From IMG/VR virus record IMGVR_UViG_3300045968_000312, positions 1-45,909 of that record: a DNA stretch of 45,909 nucleotides. One strand, given 5' to 3'. The notes beneath the pieces are model-generated. The model saw only the letters and a program-made list of their open reading frames with translations, was not told where the DNA came from and did not search any database. Positions 4,087-45,909 of this stretch are shown piece after piece. This stretch comes from a virus. The translations under genes were made by a program, and so were the position numbers. Each line of letters opens with the position of its first letter. Position 1 is the stretch's first letter.

Positions 4087-5882
4087 CAGATTACCAGGAT
4101 GTCGGTGGACTGGATCAGTACCGGCGTCGGCGCGTCCTCCGCGGCCTGAAACGCCAACGCCCCGACGGTCACGCCGTCGTGGCCGGCGTTCTGGAGCGTC
4201 GAGCCCGCCGCGCCCGTCACCTTGTGCCCCGCCCGCACCCAGGCCAGCAGCCCGGTCGTGGCATGAGTCGCCGCAGCCGGGTTGGCTATGGCGTAGGCGA
4301 CGCCAGCAGCCGAAGTCTCGGACTGGCCCTTGAACGCCGCCCACTTGGCAAATGTGCGCGTAACATCCACGAACGGGTCAGCGCTGATCGTCCCGTCGTT
4401 GGCTCCGACTTGCGCGTTCGGGTAGTCGTCGTTCAGGGAAATCTTTACGCCGTCGTAGCCGGCGACGCTCCCTTGCGACGTGGACGTGTTGTAGACACAA
4501 GTACCGAGTGACGCATTCCGGAAGTAGTTGTGAGTCGCCAGCGTCACGGCGTCCACGGCAGGCGTGCCCGCGCCGACATCCCTGATCGCGGCGATGTAGT
4601 TGCCGGTAGTCGATCCGTATATCAGGTTAGACCGGCAGGCTGTTAGCTGGCCGGCGTAGCTACTCTCCGTCTCGCTCATCCCGATCAGTCCCTGCTCCGA
4701 TGTGCCGACTATCGTGTTGTGGTTCACGGTGAAGCTGCCGGACGTTACTGCCGTGCAAGCCAGCAGCTTGCCGGCAGCGGCGTTGCTCTTGCCAAGGGAG
4801 ATGTTGCCGGTGAGCGTGCAAGTGCCGGAAGTGACGGGGTACGAAGCGATATCACCGCCGCCGTCGTGAGTATCCGCCTCGAACACCGAGTTCGTGACGC
4901 TGACGTTCGCCGCGCTTGGGTTGATGTAATGGACGTTGGAAGTTGTAAAGAGCGAGAAGAAGTAGCAGCCGGTCGTGGAACCCCACAGGCTCTGGTCCAC
5001 GCAGTCCCAGATGATGTTGCCGGTGAAGTCGCTCGCCGAGTCCCACGAGCTGCTGCCGGCGATGTAGGCGCGCGGGAGGACGTTGTTGCTGAACACCGTC
5101 CCGGCGTTGTAGATCTGCAAAGACACGTAGGCGTCGAAGCCGTTGGTGTCGATCAGCCAGTCCGACGCGGACGCGCCGAACAGCAGGTCGAACTCAGCGC
5201 AGCACGGGAAGCCGGCCACGTCGATGGTGACTGACGTGGCGAACACGTTGCCCTGGAAGGTGAAGTCGTGCTCATTCGTCCCGCGGTTCCTGTAGTTGCT
5301 GTCGGTGAACGTGCAGTTAGTGATCGACACGGGCGACCCGCTCCGCGTCCCTACTCCCCACTGGGTCGTCGTCCCCATGTCCTCGAAGTCGCAGTAGTCA
5401 ACCGTCTGGAACCCGCTGCCCACGAAGTTCGGCAACTCGGTGTGCGTGCCGAGTCCGCCGCTGCTCTTGTCCGTCCGCACCGCGCAGCGGGAGCCTGACG
5501 AGCCGGAGATATAGATCAGGCCGGAGCTGTCTGTGTTCTTGAACTTGTACTGCTGGCCGGAGGGCGGCAGGAACGTGAGCGACGAGCCGGCGTCGAGCTG
5601 CAAGTAGGTGGCGTCGCCGAAGGAAGGCCCGTCGAAGAACAAGTCGCCCTTGATGATCACGTCGATGCCGTCGTCTATCGTGAGCGTCTTGTCGGCGGCA
5701 CCGAACGCGAACGCCGCCGTGCCGTCAGTGCTGGGGCTGCTGCCGAATGTCGTGTTGGCGTCGAAGTTGTTGTTGTGGCTCCCGGTCAGCGTGTCGGTCG
5801 TTCCGAGCGCGGTCGAGCCGTCCAGGTTGGTCCCGGTGACGTTGGAGATCGCGCCGTCTGCGGTAGTTGTGCGTGCTGCCAT
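4086..5882 (-). CDS. Right-handed beta-helix tail protein (tailspike-like), 598 aa
   Basis: The start ATG at 5882 overlaps the preceding stop as TAATG. The protein is made of short N/G/S/T-rich turns alternating with V/I/F triplets (SITNCTFTDSN, FQGNVFATS, SVTNSVFEADT, LTGNISLGKS), the periodic pattern of parallel beta-helix proteins such as pectate-lyase-fold tailspikes. Length and composition fit a trimeric spike or fibre. It probably recognises or cleaves a host surface polysaccharide; no active site is assigned. Its C-terminus, VLIQSTDILVI, is shared in pattern with the next gene downstream, suggesting a common docking or trimerisation tag. Confidence 0.75.
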   Translation of the reverse strand: MAARTTTADGAISNVTGTNLDGSTALGTTDTLTGSHNNNFDANTTFGSSPSTDGTAAFAFGAADKTLTIDDGIDVIIKGDLFFDGPSFGDATYLQLDAGSSLTFLPPSGQQYKFKNTDSSGLIYISGSSGSRCAVRTDKSSGGLGTHTELPNFVGSGFQTVDYCDFEDMGTTTQWGVGTRSGSPVSITNCTFTDSNYRNRGTNEHDFTFQGNVFATSVTIDVAGFPCCAEFDLLFGASASDWLIDTNGFDAYVSLQIYNAGTVFSNNVLPRAYIAGSSSWDSASDFTGNIIWDCVDQSLWGSTTGCYFFSLFTTSNVHYINPSAANVSVTNSVFEADTHDGGGDIASYPVTSGTCTLTGNISLGKSNAAAGKLLACTAVTSGSFTVNHNTIVGTSEQGLIGMSETESSYAGQLTACRSNLIYGSTTGNYIAAIRDVGAGTPAVDAVTLATHNYFRNASLGTCVYNTSTSQGSVAGYDGVKISLNDDYPNAQVGANDGTISADPFVDVTRTFAKWAAFKGQSETSAAGVAYAIANPAAATHATTGLLAWVRAGHKVTGAAGSTLQNAGHDGVTVGALAFQAAEDAPTPVLIQSTDILVI

Positions 5883-26639: not shown

Positions 26640-26861
26640 ATGCTAGTGCTGACCCGCAAGAAAAACGAGACGATCGTTATTAACGACGACATCTCGATCG
26701 TGGTCGTGGAAATCAGGGGCGACAAAGTCCGCCTGGGGATCGAGGCACCGCGGGAGGTGACCGTCCACCGCCGCGAAGTGTACGACGCCATCCGGCGCGA
26801 GCAGGCCGCCCTCGGGCCCACGCCGCCGGAGGCCACGCCGGCGTCGACGCCTGAGTTATGA
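26640..26861 (+). CDS. csrA: Carbon storage regulator CsrA, phage-encoded, 73 aa
   Basis: MLVLTRKKNETIVINDDISIVVVEIRGDKVRLGIEAPREVTVHRREVYDAI (motifs MLVLTRK and APREVTVHRREVY) is a complete CsrA fold: five strands and a helix, with the conserved Arg of VHR that binds RNA. CsrA dimers bind A(N)GGA in 5' leaders and block or alter translation. A 16-residue Pro/Thr/Ala tail is the only extra. The gene lies three bases after its upstream neighbour and overlaps rimI (ATGA). Probably rewires host, or phage, translation during infection. Confidence 0.93.
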   Translation: MLVLTRKKNETIVINDDISIVVVEIRGDKVRLGIEAPREVTVHRREVYDAIRREQAALGPTPPEATPASTPEL

Positions 26862-29059: not shown

Positions 29060-29314
29060 ATGACTGACATGCTCACGGACGAACAGGTGAAAGTCAACGT
29101 GGCCGCCAATCTGAGGCGACTGCTGGCCGATCGTGGCCTGTCGCAGAGACAGCTCGCGGTGCTAACCGGCGACAATGAAATGACGATTTCCAACGCTTGC
29201 CGGGGCGTTCACGTGCCAGGGGCGGGAATCATAACGCGGATCGCCGAAGCACTGGATGTGTCCACCGATCGGCTCACGGGCCCAGTTCCAAAAATTTCTC
29301 GCCAGGCCTCTTGA
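29060..29314 (+). CDS. XRE/CI-type HTH repressor, 84 aa
   Basis: A full HTH_3 domain: VAANLRRLLADRGLSQRQLAVLTGDNEMTISNACRGVHVPGAGIITRIAEALDVSTDRL (motif pieces: LSQRQLAVLTG and IAEALDVSTDRL). It has only a short N-terminal arm and no separate oligomerisation domain. Located beside the integrase and the att-like site, so it is the best candidate for the lysogeny repressor. The predicted promoter leaves almost no leader. Confidence 0.75.
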   Translation: MTDMLTDEQVKVNVAANLRRLLADRGLSQRQLAVLTGDNEMTISNACRGVHVPGAGIITRIAEALDVSTDRLTGPVPKISRQAS

Positions 29315-31684: not shown

Positions 31685-31806
31685 ACAGCCAGGATTTCCG
31701 AAAACTGGTGGCCGACATGCGGCACGCTCAAAAAGAGTATTTCCGCACGCGCTCCAACACTAAGCAGCAGCTCCAGGGCATCGTGGATCGAAAGGCAGGC
31801 GCGTGA
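31681..31806 (+). CDS. Small basic helical protein, 41 aa
   Basis: ATGA overlap with the previous gene and GTGATG junction with the next. MNSQDFRKLVADMRHAQKEY start, basic end. Too short for assignment but the coupling on both sides supports it. Confidence 0.55.
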   Translation: MNSQDFRKLVADMRHAQKEYFRTRSNTKQQLQGIVDRKAGA

Positions 31807-32054
31807 TGGCAGGCCACAACGTGCAATCGTTCGGCTACCGCCTGCACGGGCGGGCAGAGCCGCCATGCAAGCGGGCCATCGAGCTCGATGGCATCCCGCA
31901 GATTCCCAAGGACGTTTTCGAGCTCATCGAGCGCGGCGGCGAGTGGGCGCTCAGCGGCGAGCAGATCGAGCGGTCCAACGCGGTTATTTGGGGCCAGGCC
32001 ACGAAAGTGATCCAGTCCCGCCACCGTTTTTTGAAGGAATGCCTGGATGACTAA
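31806..32054 (+). CDS. Early-region small protein, 82 aa
   Basis: The ATG shares its A with the preceding stop. Helical, charged (IPKDVFELIERGGEWALSGEQIERSNAVIW, quoted in part: ELIERGGEWALSGEQIE). No family recognised. Followed by the ParB-like gene after 24 bases. Confidence 0.6.
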   Translation: MAGHNVQSFGYRLHGRAEPPCKRAIELDGIPQIPKDVFELIERGGEWALSGEQIERSNAVIWGQATKVIQSRHRFLKECLDD

Positions 32055-32078
32055 TCCAGTGAAAGGAAGCACAAGGAC

Positions 32079-32579
32079 ATGAAGGAGCTGCAATATCATC
32101 CGATCGCCGAAGTATTCCCGCTGCTCGACGATGCAGAACTTAAAGCCCTTGCCGATGACATCGCCGCCAACGGGTGCAAGCTGCCGATTGTGCTTCACGA
32201 AGGAAAAATTCTTGACGGCCGCAACCGCTACCGGGCTTGTTTGTCAGTAGGCGTCGATCCGCCACTAAACGAATGGGACAAACGCGGCTCCCCGGTGGCG
32301 TTCGTCGTATCGACCAATCTGCATCGCCGCCACCTCAACAGCACGCAGAGGGCATTTGCGGCTCTGGAAATTGAGAAGCTCCTGGCGGTTGATGCAAAGC
32401 AACGCCAACGGGTTGCACTAAAGAACGGAAACCACAAGAGACACGGCAAGGCCGCGATTGTGCAAGAAATTGCACAATCGAGAGATCGCAGTCGCAACGA
32501 AGCTGCCACCCTGGCAAAAACCAATCACCAATACGTCAGCGACGCGAGGCGGAACGGTGGAGAGTGGCCAGGAATTTGA
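32079..32579 (+). CDS. ParB/Srx-type DNA-binding protein, 166 aa
   Basis: N-terminal ParB fold: ELQYHPIAEVFPLLDDAELKALADDIAANG and LPIVLHEGKILDGRNRYRAC, the ParB/Srx active-site loop, then VVSTNLHRRHLNSTQRAFAALEI as in phage ParB-like regulators. A basic C-terminal HTH-like part (QEIAQSRDRSRNEAATLA) binds DNA. The family includes partition proteins, nucleases and transcription regulators; lacking ParA, a regulator is most likely. Overlaps the next gene by 23 bases. Confidence 0.75.
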   Translation: MKELQYHPIAEVFPLLDDAELKALADDIAANGCKLPIVLHEGKILDGRNRYRACLSVGVDPPLNEWDKRGSPVAFVVSTNLHRRHLNSTQRAFAALEIEKLLAVDAKQRQRVALKNGNHKRHGKAAIVQEIAQSRDRSRNEAATLAKTNHQYVSDARRNGGEWPGI

Positions 32580-33371: not shown

Positions 33372-34271
33372 ATGCGTGATCGGGATGGATCCGACAATCA
33401 GACCGAGTTTGTTTTTTCTCGCGAAGAGAAGCTAATGCTCATTGGGGCTGCCGAATTCGACCTCTCGCCGACGCTGACCCGCCGCTTGCGGGCCCTCGTC
33501 GAGCAGCTCGAGCTGGTCACCGGCAGCCGGGGGTGTTTTCCGAGCCAGGCCCTACTGGCTGGCCGCCTGGGAGTCACGGCGCGTTGCGTTCGCGAGTGGC
33601 TGCGCCTGGGCGAAAGGCTAAAGGTCATCGCGGCGCTTCCGCGGATGATCGCCGGCTACGGTCAGATCGAAAACACCTATCAAGTCGATTGGCAGCGGGT
33701 CCGCAGCTACGTGCCACAGCACGAGCTGACTCGCATTGACCATCGACTGGGCAGGCTCGAGGCCGCGGGGAAGGCCAACAAACCACGGGAAAAAATTTCC
33801 GGGGGTGTTAAAAAATTTCCGGGGCCCCCCGGAACCAGTTTCCGGGGCCCCCCGGAACCCAGTTCCGCCCGGCTGAATGAAGTGAATGAAGAGATAGCAG
33901 CGGCTGCGCGGCGGCTGATCGATTTTGTTTTTTCCTGCGGAGTGGACCGGGCCCAGGACGCTGTAAACGCTGCCATCGCCGGCGGTTGCACGCCCGCTGA
34001 AATCCAAGCTACGGCCGAGTGGTATAGCCAGCACCACAAGCGGCTGGTCGGGGGTCCAGGGGTGCTCTATATCCAACTGCTCCGCCTACGCCCAGGTCAG
34101 CCCGTCGATCGTGGCTGGCCAAAACTAATTGCCGAGCGGCCAACCGGCGTCAGCAAGAGCGCCCAGGCAACCCAAATAATTCGAATCGGTCGGCAGGCTC
34201 GCAAGAGTGACGACGAGATACGCGGCGAACTGGCAGCCGTGGGTCTGAATTGGGACGACCAGGATTGTTGA
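33372..34271 (+). CDS. Replication initiator-like protein with HTH, 299 aa
   Basis: Residues 30-130 are winged-helix (LSPTLTRRLRALVEQL, FPSQALLAGRLGVTARCVREWLRLGERLKV), like phage lambda O-type or DnaD-like initiators. A 28-residue Gly/Pro/Arg/Phe linker (KKFPGPPGTSFRGPPEP) follows, encoded by iteron DNA, and a helical C-terminal domain. It would bind the iterons and recruit the host helicase loader. No polymerase or helicase gene is visible, so replication uses host enzymes. Confidence 0.65.
   Translation: MRDRDGSDNQTEFVFSREEKLMLIGAAEFDLSPTLTRRLRALVEQLELVTGSRGCFPSQALLAGRLGVTARCVREWLRLGERLKVIAALPRMIAGYGQIENTYQVDWQRVRSYVPQHELTRIDHRLGRLEAAGKANKPREKISGGVKKFPGPPGTSFRGPPEPSSARLNEVNEEIAAAARRLIDFVFSCGVDRAQDAVNAAIAGGCTPAEIQATAEWYSQHHKRLVGGPGVLYIQLLRLRPGQPVDRGWPKLIAERPTGVSKSAQATQIIRIGRQARKSDDEIRGELAAVGLNWDDQDC
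33790..33859. repeat. Iteron-like repeats inside the initiator gene, probable origin
   Basis: TTTCCGGGG occurs at 33796-33804, 33816-33824 and 33839-33847. AAAAAATTTCCGGGG is present twice, 20 bp apart, and a 21-bp unit with the palindromic core TTCCGGGG/CCCCGGAA occurs at 33816-33836 and 33839-33859. The AT-tract next to the repeats may be an unwinding region. Confidence 0.7.
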
Positions 34272-34585: not shown

Positions 34586-34735
34586 ATGTGGATTCTTCCG
34601 TCCTCAATATCGCAAGCCTTTGCACCGGGCTCGGGATGCTCGACGAAGCGGTCGCGCTCGGCTGCGAATACTTCGGCTGGCGAACCCGCCTTGCGCTGTG
34701 TGCTGAGTGGGAAGCCTACGCTGCGGTACTGGCAT
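34582..34735 (+). pseudogene. Truncated 5' end of a C5 cytosine DNA methyltransferase
   Basis: The frame reads NIASLCTGLGMLDEAVALG, the SAM-binding motif I of C5 methyltransferases, then EYFGWRTRLALCAEWEAYAAVLA, as seen in phage cytosine methyltransferases. After that the homology stops. The catalytic PC motif and target-recognition domain are absent, so the gene is inactive. TTG 34582 or GTG 34588 would be the start. Confidence 0.75.
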
Positions 34736-35017
34736 TCCGCCGTCGATCACCTGACCGGCTACGTCAAGGCGCGTGTTCACACGAATGGCCTTGAGAACTT
34801 CTGGTCGCTGCTCAAGCGAATGATCCACGGTAGCTACGTGTCGGTTGCCAGCTTCCACCTGTCGCGTTACGTCGATGAGGAGGCTTGGAGGTTTAACAAT
34901 CGCGACGTGGGCGACGGGCTGCGGTTCCAGCGTGTGCTGGGGGCCGTTGTCGGCAAGAGACTCACCTACCGCACGCTCACATGCCAGGGCGATGCGGGCT
35001 TTATGGGGATTCGATAG
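34727..35017 (+). pseudogene. 3' end of an IS1595/ISXO2-type transposase
   Basis: In another frame the sequence reads VKARVHTNGLENFWSLLKR, followed by RYVDEEAWRFNNR and VGKRLTYRTLT, the C-terminal part of the DDE domain with its last acidic residue in NGLE. The rest of the transposase and the left IS end are missing. It was probably joined to the methyltransferase fragment by a deletion. Confidence 0.75.
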
Positions 35018-35609: not shown

Positions 35610-35828
35610 ATGGACAAGCGGACGCAAACGAGCCGGGAGCTGACAGCGATCAAAAAGCGGAAGGCGGCAGCCGCCGCGATCGTCAAAGCGCTGTACACCG
35701 ACGCCTGGGGCCGCGAGGTCGATAGGCTCGTGCAGGAGCTGCCCGACAAGACGGAAAGCGGCGGCTATTGTCGAGAGGCACTAGAAAAACTGATCATCAA
35801 ACACCTGGCCGTGATCGGCCTGCAATGA
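35610..35828 (+). CDS. Small helical protein, 72 aa
   Basis: ATG 35610 with GTGGGG upstream (ATG 35601 is the alternative). RELTAIKKRKAAAAAIVKAL, then ELPDKTESGGYCREALEKLII. Four bases after its stop begins the first copy of the boundary hairpin. Confidence 0.5.
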   Translation: MDKRTQTSRELTAIKKRKAAAAAIVKALYTDAWGREVDRLVQELPDKTESGGYCREALEKLIIKHLAVIGLQ

Positions 35829-35832
35829 GGCA

Positions 35833-35849
35833 CTGGACTGTAAGTCCAG
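35833..35849 (+). repeat. Boundary stem-loop, copy 1
   Basis: CTGGAC-TGTAA-GTCCAG, 6-bp stem. GGAGG starts six bases later and the next ATG is at 35867. See copies at 36567, 36762 and 37071. Confidence 0.75.
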
Positions 35850-35866
35850 GTAATGGAGGGACTGAA

Positions 35867-36262
35867 ATGGTGCCAACCAGAACCGACGCCCCAAACGCTG
35901 AATGCCCGCACTGCGGCGAGCGGTTCACGAAGCTCAAGGAGGGCATGATCCCGACGCACGACTTCCCGAAGCCGTGCCGGATGGTCTGCCGAGGCTCTGG
36001 CAAGCCGCCACGCCGCAAGGATGCTCCGCTCTACAAGGACGATCCGACGCAGGAGGAACGCGACTGCTACGCTCAGGGACGGCAGGAATTGTTGATCTAT
36101 GGTTTCGCCCTGGTGAAGTTCATCGGTGAAATGCGCGGACACCCCAACGGCGAAATGCCGTGTCCGCTCTGTCAGAAGCCACTCAAGTATCGGATTGCAA
36201 AAGGCAATGGTCACTGTGCGGCGAAGTGTTCCACGCCTGAATGTCTCAACATGATCGAGTAG
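35867..36262 (+). CDS. Zinc-binding protein, 131 aa
   Basis: ATG 35867 eight bases after GGAGG. Two or three Cys clusters: CPHCGERFTKLKEG, FPKPCRMVC, MPCPLCQKPLKYR and CAAKCSTPEC. Predicted multi-zinc ribbon, perhaps DNA- or RNA-binding. Possibly an added cassette, as it is bounded by the repeat hairpin. Confidence 0.65.
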   Translation: MVPTRTDAPNAECPHCGERFTKLKEGMIPTHDFPKPCRMVCRGSGKPPRRKDAPLYKDDPTQEERDCYAQGRQELLIYGFALVKFIGEMRGHPNGEMPCPLCQKPLKYRIAKGNGHCAAKCSTPECLNMIE

Positions 36263-36266
36263 GACG

Positions 36267-36575
36267 ATGAGCAACGGATACGACGACTTCGACATCGTTC
36301 ATTGCAACCTCTGCGGCGCGCCGGTGGACCTATGCACTGAGTGCATTTTGGTCGAAGCACATCTGCCGGAAGGTCGGTGTTTCAACGACCCCGCTTTCAT
36401 GGGTTGCGGCCAGTTGAAGCTGTGCCCGACGTGCGCAGCGGTCTGCACAGAGGCGATTAGAAACCACTATCACGACGCGGGCGTTTGTGAGCACGGCGAG
36501 CGTGAGGGGGATTGGTGCCCGCAGTGCAATGCGGCTTACAAGATGGCCCGCGTCGAAAACTGCGCACTGGATTAA
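36267..36575 (+). CDS. Cys-rich zinc-binding protein, 102 aa
   Basis: Cys pairs CNLCGAPVDLCTEC, LCPTCAAVC and WCPQC give up to three zinc sites. Its stop TAA lies in the loop of the second boundary hairpin. Four bases after the previous gene. No DNA-binding family can be named. Confidence 0.65.
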   Translation: MSNGYDDFDIVHCNLCGAPVDLCTECILVEAHLPEGRCFNDPAFMGCGQLKLCPTCAAVCTEAIRNHYHDAGVCEHGEREGDWCPQCNAAYKMARVENCALD

Positions 36576-36583
36576 GCATCCAG
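36567..36583 (+). repeat. Boundary stem-loop, copy 2
   Basis: CTGGAT-TAAGC-ATCCAG. The loop contains the stop codon TAA of the preceding gene. The next ATG is at 36593 with only a weak GACG upstream. Confidence 0.75.
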
Positions 36584-36592
36584 CGCACGACG

Positions 36593-36769
36593 ATGAGCGA
36601 CTACAAGCAAGTCCCGATCCCCGAGCAGTTTGAAAAGCAGCAGGTGATCATCGCGACCAGGGATGATGACGACGCTCTGGTCCACATAACGACTTACGGC
36701 GCTACGGGTGCGGACTCCGCTACAACCACGGCCACGATCGTTGCCACTTTTAAGCGACACACTGGATAG
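36593..36769 (+). CDS. Small protein, 58 aa
   Basis: MSDYKQVPIPEQFEKQQVII, then a Thr/Ala-rich beta segment (YGATGADSATTTATIVATF). Stop TAG is in the third boundary hairpin. No family recognised. Confidence 0.5.
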   Translation: MSDYKQVPIPEQFEKQQVIIATRDDDDALVHITTYGATGADSATTTATIVATFKRHTG

Positions 36770-36778
36770 TTAGTCCAG
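36762..36778 (+). repeat. Boundary stem-loop, copy 3
   Basis: CTGGAT-AGTTA-GTCCAG (one G-T wobble). Stop TAG begins at its stem-loop junction; GGAGG begins six bases after it and ATG is at 36794. Confidence 0.75.
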
Positions 36779-36793
36779 GCACCGGAGGCGTGA

Positions 36794-37078
36794 ATGTTGA
36801 CCATCGTCGATCCCTTCGCCGCTGAAATCGCCCGCTGGCTCATGGCCGAGATAACGTCGCGGCGGAAGCCAACGCCTGCCCAGCTCATGTACCACGCTTT
36901 TCTGCAGGGGATGCACGCAGGCTGGGTTGGCTATGATCACCGCCGCGACTGCCCTTACGGCACGAACGATTACAGGATGTGGTGGATGCACGGCTGCATT
37001 GTCGGCGGTCACCGACGTGAGGCAAATTTGAGAATTCAGGAGCTAGAGGCGGCTTTAGACGAAGCACGCGCTGGATGA
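36794..37078 (+). CDS. Small protein with His/Trp-rich centre, 94 aa
   Basis: MYHAFLQGMHAGWVGYDHRR, DYRMWWMHGCIVGGHRR; helical. Stop TGA overlaps the fourth hairpin. No family recognised. GGAGG precedes ATG 36794. Confidence 0.55.
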   Translation: MLTIVDPFAAEIARWLMAEITSRRKPTPAQLMYHAFLQGMHAGWVGYDHRRDCPYGTNDYRMWWMHGCIVGGHRREANLRIQELEAALDEARAG

Positions 37079-37087
37079 AGAGTCCAG
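37071..37087 (+). repeat. Boundary stem-loop, copy 4
   Basis: CTGGAT-GAAGA-GTCCAG, extendable to nine pairs with GCG/CGC flanks. Stop TGA begins in the stem; GGAGGG begins six bases later and ATG is at 37103. Confidence 0.75.
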
Positions 37088-37102
37088 CGCACGGAGGGAC
37101 TG

Positions 37103-37360
37103 ATGAAGTGCCAACACGACGGATGCGAAAACGACGGCGAAGAGTGCTACTTGTCGTGTGTCGATCGTGACACCGAGCAGGACGTGCCTGACGGCTACTA
37201 CTGCGGCGATCACGCCGCCGACCACGGCTTTTGTCCATGTTGCGGCGAGTTTTGGGGCGGCATCGGCACGTTCGAGATGCGCGGCATTTGCGACCACTGC
37301 CACGACGAGCTAGAGGACGAGATCGACGAGCACCTTGAGTACATCGATTGGGAGGATTGA
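37103..37360 (+). CDS. Cys-rich zinc-binding protein, 85 aa
   Basis: Cys pattern CQHDGCENDGEECYLSC, YYCGDHAADHGFCPCCGEFW and CDHCHDELEDE gives at least two zinc sites plus an acidic tail. Found after hairpin copy 4. It may be a small regulator or an inhibitor of a host factor; nothing proves this. Confidence 0.65.
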   Translation: MKCQHDGCENDGEECYLSCVDRDTEQDVPDGYYCGDHAADHGFCPCCGEFWGGIGTFEMRGICDHCHDELEDEIDEHLEYIDWED

Positions 37361-37854: not shown

Positions 37855-38060
37855 AGATCGGCGCTGGCTTGTTGCGGATGCTTTTGTTCGCCGCCGGCGT
37901 CGCATGCGGCGTCGTCGGCGCTCAATTGTGGGAGTCCGCGGACCGGGCCGAGCTGCGTCGCGAGCTGGCGAAGAGCCGCCAATACTGTGACGACTGGCGC
38001 GATCTGGCCGTGCTCCGGGATGAGGAGCTGCAGGCCGCGTATAAGGAGCTGGCAAAATGA
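37851..38060 (+). CDS. TM plus coiled-coil protein (spanin- or anchor-like), 69 aa
   Basis: MKIGAGLLRMLLFAAGVACG TM helix near the N-terminus, then a charged helical tail (ADRAELRRELAKSRQYCDDW). This layout fits inner-membrane spanins (Rz-like) or pilus-cassette anchor proteins. Overlaps both neighbours (ATGA each). Confidence 0.55.
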   Translation: MKIGAGLLRMLLFAAGVACGVVGAQLWESADRAELRRELAKSRQYCDDWRDLAVLRDEELQAAYKELAK

Positions 38061-38989
38061 GGCGCGGATTTACTTTGCCGGAAATGCTGATTGTGATCCT
38101 CATCGTCGGCATCATGTCTGGTCTCGTGCTGGCGGGATTAAGTGGGGCCGTGCAACTCGCCCGCGAGCAGCGGACACGAGCCATAATCGGCAAGCTGGAC
38201 TTGCTGATTGGCGAACGGTGGGACGGCTACAGCACGCGGGCCGTGCCGATGAGGATTCCTGCCGGGACCGTGCCCGTGGTCGCGGCCCGTGCGAGGCTCT
38301 ACGCGCTGCGCGAACTGCAGAGAATGGAAATGCCAGACCACGTTACGGATCTCATCGATGGTCCGGTGATTCTCTCCACGCAACCATCCGCCTGGAAAGG
38401 CTACCGCCGGAGGGCGCAACGAGAGTCAATTGCAAAATTCGGGGCCGGCGCAGATTGGACAACGACATGGACCGCACAGCACCAGGGCAGCGAATGCCTG
38501 TATTTGATCCTGTCCCAAATGCACGACGGCGACAAACAGGCTCTCGACTATTTCAGCCAGGATGAGATAGGGGACGTTGACGACGATGGGATGAAGGAGA
38601 TCCTCGACGGCTGGGGGCAGCCGATTGAGTTTCTGCGCTGGCCGGCTGGATTCACAACCGCCAATGGCGCTATAGGTCCGATGGATGCGGACTTCGCAAG
38701 CCATCCCGATCCGTTCGACCCGTTGAAATGCGACCCACGGTGGCTCGACGCGACGGCGACAATCAAGCCCTACATGCTGACGCCGCTACTTCTCTCCGCC
38801 GGCCGTGACAAGGCTTACGACATTTCGATCCTGAGCGGGTTCAAGTACAGCACCACGAACCCGGCCAATGACCCGTACTATGGCCTGAATTCTACGACGC
38901 AGGTTATGAACGGGACGCCTCGGGATAACGACGGCGACGGTTTGGTGTCGAGCGACAACATCACGAATCTGGCACCTGAGACACCTTAG
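38057..38989 (+). CDS. Prepilin-type (pseudopilin) protein, 310 aa
   Basis: MRRGFTLPEMLIVILIVGIM has the type IV prepilin cleavage site G4/F5 with Glu at mature position 5 and a 20-residue hydrophobic stem. The large soluble domain has a GspG-like motif area (DGWGQPIEFLRWPAGF) and DPFDPLKCDPRWLD, as in planctomycete type II secretion/pseudopilin proteins; it ends in an Asp/Gly/Asn-rich tail (DNDGDGLVSSDN). It needs a host prepilin peptidase. Three-gene ATGA-linked cassette with two small membrane proteins. Its 3' end overlaps the convergent structural gene by 29 bases. Confidence 0.8.
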   Translation: MRRGFTLPEMLIVILIVGIMSGLVLAGLSGAVQLAREQRTRAIIGKLDLLIGERWDGYSTRAVPMRIPAGTVPVVAARARLYALRELQRMEMPDHVTDLIDGPVILSTQPSAWKGYRRRAQRESIAKFGAGADWTTTWTAQHQGSECLYLILSQMHDGDKQALDYFSQDEIGDVDDDGMKEILDGWGQPIEFLRWPAGFTTANGAIGPMDADFASHPDPFDPLKCDPRWLDATATIKPYMLTPLLLSAGRDKAYDISILSGFKYSTTNPANDPYYGLNSTTQVMNGTPRDNDGDGLVSSDNITNLAPETP

Positions 38990-40987: not shown

Positions 40988-43054
40988 TCACCCCATCGTC
41001 TCACCGCGGAAGGTGTCGAGCACCGCGGTCGTGGTTTGGGACGTGAAGTCGTATTTCATGCCGACGACGATCGGGTAGCGCTTGGTGGGGGCCGGGCCTG
41101 AGCTGGCGTCGTCGCTGGGATTGGCGTCGTCGCTGGGCGGCTTGCCCTGGTCGACCGTCGTCTGGAAGTCGATGCCCCGCCCATCGACGCCCAGGATCGG
41201 CCGGCCGAGGGCCCCGTTGGCCTTGTAGCCGCACCCGGTGAGCGTGATCGAACCGGCGACGCTGGCCTGGTTCCAATTCGCCAGCAGCTGCCGGGCAAAA
41301 CTCATCGCCGCCAGCAGGTCGTCCACCTGGCTGGCGCGCAGCTCCTTCCTGATCACCTTTGATTTGTAGATCGACGACTTGTGGATGAACCGCTTTTTAA
41401 AGCGTGAGCCGACGTCGAGCGTCTCCACGCGCGTCGCTGGGTCGAGCGGTGAGTCCTCCTGCACGAACGCCACCAGGCGCCGGTCGGCCTGAATGGAGGC
41501 CGTCACCCGCACCTTGCCAACCGGCAGGCCCGTCTCCTCGTCGATCCCCTGGTCCATCAGCTCGACCGGAGGCACCTCGCCGTCGAACCGGATCCCGCAC
41601 TCGTGCGAGAGAATGTTTACCTGCCGGCCCTCGGCCCCGATTTCCGTTAGCTTCTTCCACTCAGCGTCAGCGCTGTCCCACCACTCCACTTCGATCCCGC
41701 CGCAGGAGCCGATGGGGCTGCCGTCGGTGTTGAGCGTGATCGTCGGCTCAAACTTTCGCCGGCGGTTCACGCAGGGCCCGAGGAACGGGGCCAGATCGAA
41801 CGTCCCCTCGATCCCATCCCGCAGGTCGTTGTAGTCGCCGGCCTCGTTGAGCACCCAGTCCCGCCACACCCGCGAGGTATTTTCCGGATCCTTCAGCGAC
41901 CAGCTTTCGCTGGAATCGATCAGGTCCTCGTCGTCGGCCTCGTCGTGAGTGCTGTCCCACGCCGGGACCAGCTCCCAGGTCGCCTCGATCTGCACATAGT
42001 CACCGAGGACCCGGAACGCGTTGACGCAGCGGCTGCTCACGTCGGCCGTCAGGTCGAGGTCCTCGGCGTTGGTTTTATCCATGTCGAGGTCCTGACCGCT
42101 GGCCTGCATTTTGATGCGGCCGCCGGTCCCGCGGCCGCGGGCGAACACGCGGATCTGACGCTTGCCCGGTGACAGGTAGTCGATGCACCAATCGAACCCG
42201 TAAGGCCTCAGCAGGGCGTCCAGCTGCACGTTCAGGTATTGGCCCAGCGGCTGGCGGTGAGCCCGCAGCACGCGGTCGTCGGCCCCCATCATGTCCTTTA
42301 GCACCTTGGCGTCCGGGTTCTTAATGAACTCCTCGTCCCGGTTGCACTGATCGCAGAGCATGAGGACGGCCTGGCTGAGCGTCCAAAACTCCACCTCCTG
42401 GCCGTCGGCCGTCTTGGCCGTGGTGTCCCGCACCCGCTCGCTGCCGCTCACGGCCCCGGCCTGATCGGCAAACAGCAGCTGCTCAGGCGGCACGAATCCG
42501 GTCTTCTTCAAGTCGTTCGACTTCGACTTGTTGCCCACGCAGCGGCCGTCATATTCCGGGTTAAATACGACCTGCTCCTCGACGGTGATGAACCGCGGGT
42601 CCTCCTCCTCACCCTCCTGCTCGTCGCTTTCCTCCGCGGCCTCTTCCTCGACTTCCTCCTCGGCGTCAGCCGAGCCCTGGCTGGCAAAGCACCGCATGCC
42701 GTCGAGCGGCTTGCCGAAATGAAAACCCTCCACCCGGCTGACAAACCGGCGGGCCGCCCCGCCGGCCGCGATGCTGATCTGGTGGCCGCCGATCACGCCC
42801 CAGTGGATAACCTGCATCGACGTCGCCGCATTGGCCGCGGTGCCGTGCAGCGCCACGCTGATTTCGCACTCCTGACCGAGCCACGGGTGAGCGATCAGCC
42901 GCTCGGCTTTCTTTTCGACGAGCGGGAACTCTTCGATGATCGCCGTGTCCAGCTTGCCCCCGCCGGTCGACAGGTCGACCGTGAGCACGTGGGCTGTGTC
43001 CACCGCCTGGTTCTTGATCGTCACCTTGGTTTTTACGGCCGGCCGCTGCAGCAT
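40988..43054 (-). CDS. Baseplate hub-like tail protein, 688 aa
   Basis: The largest tail protein of the operon. Middle part (LRPYGFDWCIDYLSPGKRQIRVFARGRGTGG; VSSRCVNAFRVLGDYVQIEATWELVPAW) is the pattern of gpJ/gp27-type hub proteins. A 30-residue acidic run at about 135-160 (AEEEVEEEAAEESDEQEGEE) is unusual. C-terminal beta region reads ITLTGCGYKANGALGRPILGVDG. Start ATG 43054, GAGG upstream; GTG 43057 is the alternative. Forms the tail tip around the tape measure end. Confidence 0.6.
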   Translation of the reverse strand: MLQRPAVKTKVTIKNQAVDTAHVLTVDLSTGGGKLDTAIIEEFPLVEKKAERLIAHPWLGQECEISVALHGTAANAATSMQVIHWGVIGGHQISIAAGGAARRFVSRVEGFHFGKPLDGMRCFASQGSADAEEEVEEEAAEESDEQEGEEEDPRFITVEEQVVFNPEYDGRCVGNKSKSNDLKKTGFVPPEQLLFADQAGAVSGSERVRDTTAKTADGQEVEFWTLSQAVLMLCDQCNRDEEFIKNPDAKVLKDMMGADDRVLRAHRQPLGQYLNVQLDALLRPYGFDWCIDYLSPGKRQIRVFARGRGTGGRIKMQASGQDLDMDKTNAEDLDLTADVSSRCVNAFRVLGDYVQIEATWELVPAWDSTHDEADDEDLIDSSESWSLKDPENTSRVWRDWVLNEAGDYNDLRDGIEGTFDLAPFLGPCVNRRRKFEPTITLNTDGSPIGSCGGIEVEWWDSADAEWKKLTEIGAEGRQVNILSHECGIRFDGEVPPVELMDQGIDEETGLPVGKVRVTASIQADRRLVAFVQEDSPLDPATRVETLDVGSRFKKRFIHKSSIYKSKVIRKELRASQVDDLLAAMSFARQLLANWNQASVAGSITLTGCGYKANGALGRPILGVDGRGIDFQTTVDQGKPPSDDANPSDDASSGPAPTKRYPIVVGMKYDFTSQTTTAVLDTFRGETMG

Positions 43055-45109: not shown

Positions 45110-45880
45110 TCAGCCAACGGGGATGGAAACACGGGCCGTTTTTTTTTGATCGGTGACCGTGAGCAGCACGGGCAGGTCGACCGTGGCCTTGATCACCTGC
45201 TGCATGCCGCGGTCGTTCAGCAGGCCGAGCTGGGTGATCAGCTCAGCGTTCAGCCGATAGTTGAAGCTGAGGGCCTGCACGCAGTAGGCGAACGTCGCGG
45301 GCAGATCGAAGTCGGCGGCCAGCTTCTTGGTGCCCCGCGTGGCGTGCATCACGTGAAGCTGGGCCAGCTTCTCGAAGATGCCCTGAGCAAACACCTGGCT
45401 CGCCTCGTGAAAGGCCCGGTAGGCCTGATCGATCTGCCGGTCGTAAATGCCGTCGGGGCCCAGGCCGTGAACGTGGGGCATCAGGGGGGCCGCAGGGACG
45501 TGCCATTGCTGGCCGTCGCCCAAAGTCACCCAGTAGCCCGCGAGCGTCTCCTGCCGCTCCAGGTCGGCCGGCCTGACGCCGGCGGCCGGGTTCACCCCGA
45601 CCCAGTAGTCGCCCTTCTTGAGCGGCCCGCTGGGGCTCGGCCGGCAGGGCTGCCACTGCCACCCGTCGACGATCCCCATCGGCGGATCGCTGCCGTCGCC
45701 CTTCAGCCAGGTGCAGCAGATCCCTGTGGTGCCGTCAGGCCCGCGGCCCGGCGGCTCGAACCACACTGGCGCCTGCCGGCTGTGACCCTCGCCGGCCAGG
45801 CCGGCCAGGCCGCAGGACGACAGGTGCTCGTCGCCGGCGGGAACGCCCCGCCGGCCCGGGAAATACAAAATGAAGTGCAT
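45110..45880 (-). CDS. Pre-tape-measure protein, chaperone position, 256 aa
   Basis: Position is that of tail assembly chaperones, but the length is larger. N-terminus MHFILYFPGRRGVPAGDEHL, then CGLAGLAGEGHSRQAPVWFE and DGTTGICCTWL: the form of a small beta domain I associate with planctomycete phage-like loci. Later helices (IDQAYRAFHEASQVFAQGIF) and the C-terminal beta end (DLPVLLTVTDQKKTARVSIP). Function unknown. The first 74 codons are repeated at the left edge. Confidence 0.65.
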   Translation of the reverse strand: MHFILYFPGRRGVPAGDEHLSSCGLAGLAGEGHSRQAPVWFEPPGRGPDGTTGICCTWLKGDGSDPPMGIVDGWQWQPCRPSPSGPLKKGDYWVGVNPAAGVRPADLERQETLAGYWVTLGDGQQWHVPAAPLMPHVHGLGPDGIYDRQIDQAYRAFHEASQVFAQGIFEKLAQLHVMHATRGTKKLAADFDLPATFAYCVQALSFNYRLNAELITQLGLLNDRGMQQVIKATVDLPVLLTVTDQKKTARVSIPVG

Positions 45881-45909
45881 CGCTCAGGGGGCCCCCACGG
45901 AGCCGCCCT
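45657..45909. repeat. Right copy of terminal direct repeat
   Basis: 252 of 253 bases identical to 1-253. Marks the circular join; T at 45783 against G at 127. Confidence 0.95.
45884..45909 (-). CDS. 3' end of the 140-residue tail gene (second copy, partial)
   Basis: Duplicate of 228-253 from the circular overlap; not a separate gene. Confidence 0.9.

Follow-up and report, generated by a model that had tools for sequence, protein, structure and literature searches.

A 17-bp palindrome repeated at gene junctions of an uncultured phage and its possible role as an operator

The same short palindrome, CTGGAY-N5-RTCCAG, recurs between closely packed genes of the phage DNA described here, and the question it raises is whether it is recognized as a DNA sequence or as a hairpin in mRNA, and by which factor. 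The window (the whole stretch of DNA that was analysed, 45,909 nt) is IMG/VR virus record IMGVR_UViG_3300045968_000312, positions 1-45,909. Because a direct terminal repeat of 253 bp occupies both ends (1-253 and 45657-45909; one mismatch, 99.6% identity), the record is probably a complete genome and the count of palindromes is probably full. A terminase, a portal protein and a protease-major-capsid fusion were identified with PHROGs. Capsid-protein relatives were found in other IMG/VR contigs, with 57% identity for the closest distinct one and 41-47% for the others. A prophage-like region in a Planctomycetales MAG encodes a 46% identical capsid protein, so that the record likely represents an uncultured phage with a planctomycete host. 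A search of the genome collection with the portal protein returned no relative. The closest distinct relative (G020) has tandem repeats with a 24-bp unit (CGGCCGAATCGACGGCCGAACCGA) at either end of its contig (L112 1-240; L114 end).

Palindromes at the gene junctions

Five exact matches to CTGGAY-N5-RTCCAG are present in the 45,909-nt genome, whereas none appeared in 100 shuffled sequences. The first-pass annotation had listed four copies and held that an equal frequency in shuffled sequence would refute it; all four are exact and the comparison came out in their favor, while a fifth exact copy at 32043-32059 had been overlooked. The copies and their junctions are as follows.

32043..32059, + strand: copy 1, CTGGATGACTAATCCAG, exact match; stop codon TAA 32052-32054 (gene 31803-32054) inside the palindrome; GGAAG at 32065; ATG 32079 (ParB-like gene)
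35833..35849, + strand: copy 2, CTGGACTGTAAGTCCAG, exact match; stop codon TGA 35826-35828, with the palindrome 4 nt later; GGAGG 35855-35859; ATG 35867
36567..36583, + strand: copy 3, CTGGATTAAGCATCCAG, exact match; stop codon TAA 36573-36575 inside the palindrome; without Shine-Dalgarno; ATG 36593
36762..36778, + strand: copy 4, CTGGATAGTTAGTCCAG, exact match; stop codon TAG 36767-36769 inside the palindrome; GGAGG 36784-36788; ATG 36794
37071..37087, + strand: copy 5, CTGGATGAAGAGTCCAG, stem extended to 9 bp; stop codon TGA 37076-37078 inside the palindrome; GGAGG 37093-37097; ATG 37103

The palindrome comprises 17 bases with 6-bp arms, which are perfect except for a G-U pair in two copies, and a spacer of always 5. 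When CTGGAY and RTCCAG were paired throughout the window at spacings of 0-39, five pairs had spacing 5 and one had another spacing. In a search of all dyad families with 5-bp stems and interior lengths of 3-15, the palindrome family (5-bp stem, 7-nt interior) reached a Poisson p of 3.7e-8, while the best family in each of 150 simulated third-order Markov genomes was never better than 2e-6. With up to 2 mismatches allowed, just two more sites appeared, neither of them at a junction, and the total of 7 matches compares with 6 expected; near matches thus occur at chance level and were not counted as further copies. A REP element was considered on copy number only and set aside.

All five copies are on the coding strand, each where one rightward gene stops and the next starts, and they are confined to one rightward region at 32-37 kb, with a start codon 9-19 nt downstream of each. 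In agreement with the first-pass annotation, the upstream stop codon falls within the palindrome at 36567, 36762 and 37071, and the same holds at 32043. The stop codons sit at offsets 10, 7, 6 and 6 in differing frames; lacking a fixed register, their overlap is probably a consequence of tight gene packing. A GGARG Shine-Dalgarno motif begins exactly 5 nt downstream of four copies: the GGAGG followed by ATG that had been noticed after three of them (35833, 36762 and 37071), and GGAAG in the same place at 32043. No GGARG motif follows copy 3 (36567). The copies at 35833, 36762 and 37071 resemble one another from the palindrome down to the start codon.

The genes around copies 2-5 are listed below.

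35867..36262, + strand: gene A, 131 aa, Cys-rich and zinc-ribbon-like (weak Pfam and PHROG matches); behind copy 2
36267..36575, + strand: gene B, 102 aa with 13 Cys; no palindrome upstream, 3' end inside copy 3
36593..36769, + strand: gene C, 58 aa without Cys; between copies 3 and 4
36794..37078, + strand: gene D, 94 aa; between copies 4 and 5
37103..37360, + strand: gene E, 85 aa, Cys-rich; behind copy 5

These genes had been described as small and mostly Cys-rich. Among the five genes directly behind a copy, two (35867 and 37103) are Cys-rich, 36593 is without Cys, and 32079 and 36794 contain two each; the third Cys-rich gene (36267) directly follows no copy. Searches for relatives gave only one spurious match and one 8-aa match for genes D and E in viral contigs, and none for gene A among phages. 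Over 57 aa, gene E shares ~50% identity with a zinc-ribbon protein from an unrelated podovirus (MW202812.1). In that podovirus, the gene upstream of the homologue ends in a perfect 26-bp palindrome over its stop codon (L117 3895-3920), of which no second copy was found in the 8.2-kb stretch searched, and small genes at about 4610-4930 of L117 are separated by sequences that by eye are integron attC-like (GGCTAAC...GTTGGGC).

Three further features of the window were observed in this part of the genome. Three iteron-like repeats (TTTCCGGGGCCCCCCGGAACC) at 33783-33861 (+) lie inside gene 33372-34271, which has a weak HTH_36 match, and possibly mark an origin of replication within a replication gene, an arrangement known from lambdoid phages. 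At 34586-35017 (+), a remnant of an IS1595-type transposase (PF12762, C-terminal part) is fused to an unrelated N-terminal sequence. A protein with a prepilin N-terminal methylation motif (PF07963) is encoded at 38057-38989 (+), adjoining phage genes.

Conserved letters and a possible operator

Conservation is concentrated in the arms. Ten of the 12 stem letters are invariant in the five copies and the sixth letter of the half-site is always Y; mean pairwise identity is 0.93 and 0.90 in the two arms, 0.32 in the center, 0.36 in the 5-nt gap and 0.27 beyond the Shine-Dalgarno motif. Five of the six stem pairs are thus invariant and the sole variable one would be UA, CG or UG in RNA, always pairable. 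Covariation in the stem was not above that of shuffles, 312 of 500 of which scored as high with the five copies. Because the arm letters had served to find the copies, the starts tested in the window were also searched with the stem sequence left free, and none of the others had a hairpin with another stem 5 nt upstream of a Shine-Dalgarno motif. Taken together, the invariant pairs, the shuffle-level covariation and the lack of an alternative stem indicate that the letters themselves are conserved, beyond the pairing. The earlier argument that stems are kept while loops differ, and that the structure is therefore selected, does not hold on these grounds, and the compensatory changes sought by its covariance check were not found. 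With five copies, the Y at the sixth letter is compatible both with RNA pairing and with a DNA-binding protein that accepts two letters there.

The half-site centers are 11 bp apart, about one DNA turn, and the central 5-mers are all different. Recognition of letters in conserved half-sites about one helical turn apart, around a free center, fits best with a dimeric DNA-binding regulator, and missing covariation and alternative stems would be expected if letters rather than shape are recognized. Our leading, still tentative, interpretation is that the five palindromes are sequence-specific operators of a dimeric phage regulator; we infer the binding, the identity of the binder and its effect from sequence. 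The dimer would bind the 17-bp dyad through the half-site CTGGAY, leaving the 5-bp center free. Binding at the junctions would then regulate how the genes downstream of each site are transcribed, either by blocking the passing RNA polymerase, in a stoperator-like manner, or by blocking a junction promoter. A scan for sigma-70-type promoters over 31.6-38.2 kb counts against this reading, with one site where shuffles lead one to expect 1.5, although this sole promoter-like site (36741-36770) overlaps copy 4. Three phage proteins were considered as readers.

29060..29314, + strand: XRE-type helix-turn-helix regulator, 84 aa (phrog_8, 1.2e-11); candidate reader
32079..32579, + strand: ParB-like protein, 166 aa (phrog_21315, 3.6e-21, and ParB-like families), behind copy 1; candidate reader
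26640..26861, + strand: CsrA-family RNA-binding regulator, 73 aa (phrog_9500, 2.3e-22; PF02599, 2.5e-27)

The XRE-type and ParB-like proteins are candidates for the regulator of the operator reading, and copy 1 stands directly before the ParB-like gene. As a further point against this reading, no copy within 2 mismatches was found near the XRE gene. A DNA operator also leaves the fixed 5-nt distance to GGARG (4/4) unexplained, except if it was duplicated as one unit with the ribosome site; such joint copying could account for the spacing at 35833, 36762 and 37071, which are alike down to the start codon.

Hairpin, centromere, cassette and CsrA readings

The constant 5-nt gap to GGARG, kept in four copies despite differing gap letters, is the main argument for a second reading, possible but rather unlikely in our judgment, in which the palindrome acts in mRNA as a 6-bp hairpin bordering the ribosome-binding site on its upstream side. 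Bound by a protein, or serving as a standby site or roadblock, the hairpin would set downstream translation. It is present in the minimum-energy fold at all five junctions, with a pairing probability of 0.57-1.00, and the always pairable variable pair is in its favor. However, the stem letters are fixed without covariation above shuffles, the unrelated loops speak against a loop-recognizing protein, one copy lacks a Shine-Dalgarno motif, and the junction folds show no consistent gain in stability over shuffles (z +0.5 to -2.3). Furthermore, predicted exposure of the Shine-Dalgarno motif was nearly equal with the hairpin allowed and forbidden (0.37/0.35, 0.27/0.26, 0.21/0.21 and 0.58/0.51) in all copies that have this motif, the exception being 36567, which has none. 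The modeled folds, which speak to Shine-Dalgarno exposure rather than to ribosome docking or a bound protein, thus lend no support to insulation of translation, as the first-pass annotation had suggested, or to unmasking. An extension of the hairpin reading, a phage "RNA operon" in which one phage protein would read the hairpins on mRNA, always 5 nt before the Shine-Dalgarno motif, and switch the translation of unrelated small genes together, is improbable; if true, it would extend to several genes the RNA operators that known phages have at single sites.

Other RNA elements were tried and rejected. No copy appeared in a scan for intrinsic terminators (GC stem and U tract), and no Rfam family reached its gathering score anywhere in the window. 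The loop GAAGA of copy 5 (37071) resembles lambda boxB; the remaining loops are dissimilar, and a boxB/nut-like element was discarded.

The remaining readings are less likely than the operator and the mRNA element. The position of the ParB-like gene directly behind copy 1 would suit dispersed parS-type palindromes, centromere-like sites for the protein encoded at 32079-32579, which would stand at gene boundaries only through their exclusion from coding sequence, as in the phage-plasmid N15. This is quite improbable: a scan of the proteins of part of the ORFs identified no ParA, the copies are clustered within 5 kb, and a constant Shine-Dalgarno distance is unexpected for such sites. The upstream regions of 26 ParB-like homologues contained no CTGGAY hairpin.

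The copies are interspersed with small genes that have few relatives or none, and three copies are alike from palindrome to start codon, as might be seen if the palindromes were cassette boundaries, short shared sequences for the exchange of small accessory genes. We consider this very improbable in view of the distribution of the 27-nt module (hairpin, 5 nt, GGAGG). In IMG/VR it occurred in 40 contigs, once in each, and stood before a plausible start in 4 of the 40, compared with 11% for all GGAGG there; these occurrences therefore look like chance. The exact motif is absent from the relatives G001, G003-G007 and G020-G022, several of which are fragments, so that the search for it before the starts of related phages, proposed earlier, found nothing in relatives with a 41-57% identical capsid protein; these lack the small genes, and the same junctions are therefore not comparable. 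Two one-mismatch sites in G006 were rejected as copies since they apparently lie inside coding sequence, as were other repeated dyads, CGTGC-N4-GCACG (G007/G003) and TTCGC-N10-GCGAA (G020), whose junction arrangement is not comparable. The Planctomycetales MAG G019 has five exact copies in 7.4 Mb, and in 398 genomes of its planctomycete class the module with GGARG was found five times, always singly, which is no more than chance. Among the IMG/VR contigs, relatives and 398 planctomycete-class genomes searched, the element is private to this phage. The earlier suggestion of recombination or cassette boundaries thus finds no relative with the same boundary around different genes, and the center differs in every copy (five different 5-mers), unlike a recombinase core.

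Finally, it is highly improbable that the phage CsrA bridges the GGA of the palindrome and that of the Shine-Dalgarno motif, although they are a constant 20 nt apart in four copies and a CsrA-family protein is encoded by the phage and three relatives. The CsrA consensus is ANGGA in a hairpin loop, whereas the first GGA here is paired in the stem without an ANGGA core and no loop contains GGA. As the relatives with CsrA lack the motif and the palindrome GGA lies in the stem, CsrA is an unlikely reader. The CsrA-family genes of the relatives (G020 4928-5074, G007 32228-32371 and G001 42851-42988) are conserved, a sign that phages of this probably planctomycete-infecting group may regulate translation or intervene in host CsrA circuits.

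Related elements in other phages

The closest described elements are the start-associated sequences (SAS and ESAS) of Cluster K mycobacteriophages and the stoperators of Cluster A. The SAS is a 13-bp asymmetric sequence, GGGATAGGAGCCC, present 11-19 times, and the ESAS upstream of it has imperfect 17-bp inverted-repeat arms with a 4-13 bp spacer (PMC3203893, PMC12699233). For these inverted repeats ahead of starts, the describers favored DNA-protein sites over hairpins (PMC3203893), which, like the Cluster A stoperators (PMC6550527), is a precedent in favor of the operator reading. In both cases a repeated element of putative function, combining an inverted repeat with a Shine-Dalgarno core and sometimes enclosing the upstream stop codon, stands just before the starts of a subset of non-structural genes (5/5 here). 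The present palindrome differs in its arms of 6 bp (9 at one copy), perfect but for G-U in two, its constant spacer of 5, its five copies, its host group and the lack of shared sequence; read directly, the sequences downstream do not contain GGGATAGGAGCCC at these junctions, and the likeness ends at GGAGG. Cluster A stoperators (L5, Bxb1) are 13-bp asymmetric sites oriented with transcription; a genome has as many as about 30, and the monomeric phage repressor that binds them blocks elongation (PMC6550527, PMC9283540). They are likewise short conserved sites repeated along a phage genome, whereas the site here is symmetric, 17 bp long and present in five copies, with a putative binder; regulator binding is proposed only. 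As the defining features of SAS/ESAS and stoperators are not found, the palindrome is an analogue of these elements, as the first-pass annotation had proposed for Cluster K, and not a member.

More distant parallels also exist. The phiC31 repressor sites (CIBs) are conserved inverted repeats, dyad-symmetric operators that lie dispersed between the genes of a phage; sequence, host and repressor differ. Centromere sites of the phage-plasmid N15 are dispersed. The N15 IR and F sopC centromere palindromes are sites read by a ParB-type protein (PMC7205306). The present copies differ from them in sequence, in the fixed Shine-Dalgarno relation and in that ParA did not turn up in the scanned proteins. 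Integron attC sites are likewise hairpins between small genes, but by eye the five copies have no GTTRRRY/RYYYAAC core.

The palindrome is most likely bound by a phage regulator, as a site peculiar to this phage but of a kind known from others. Start-associated repeats have been described in mycobacteriophages, where their function is unproven (PMC3203893). A shorter and symmetric counterpart of independent origin, in a phage whose host group has received little study, would imply that the arrangement of a single regulatory site ahead of numerous small genes arose more than once. The compact form of the palindrome, with candidate readers encoded nearby, would make a direct binding test simple.
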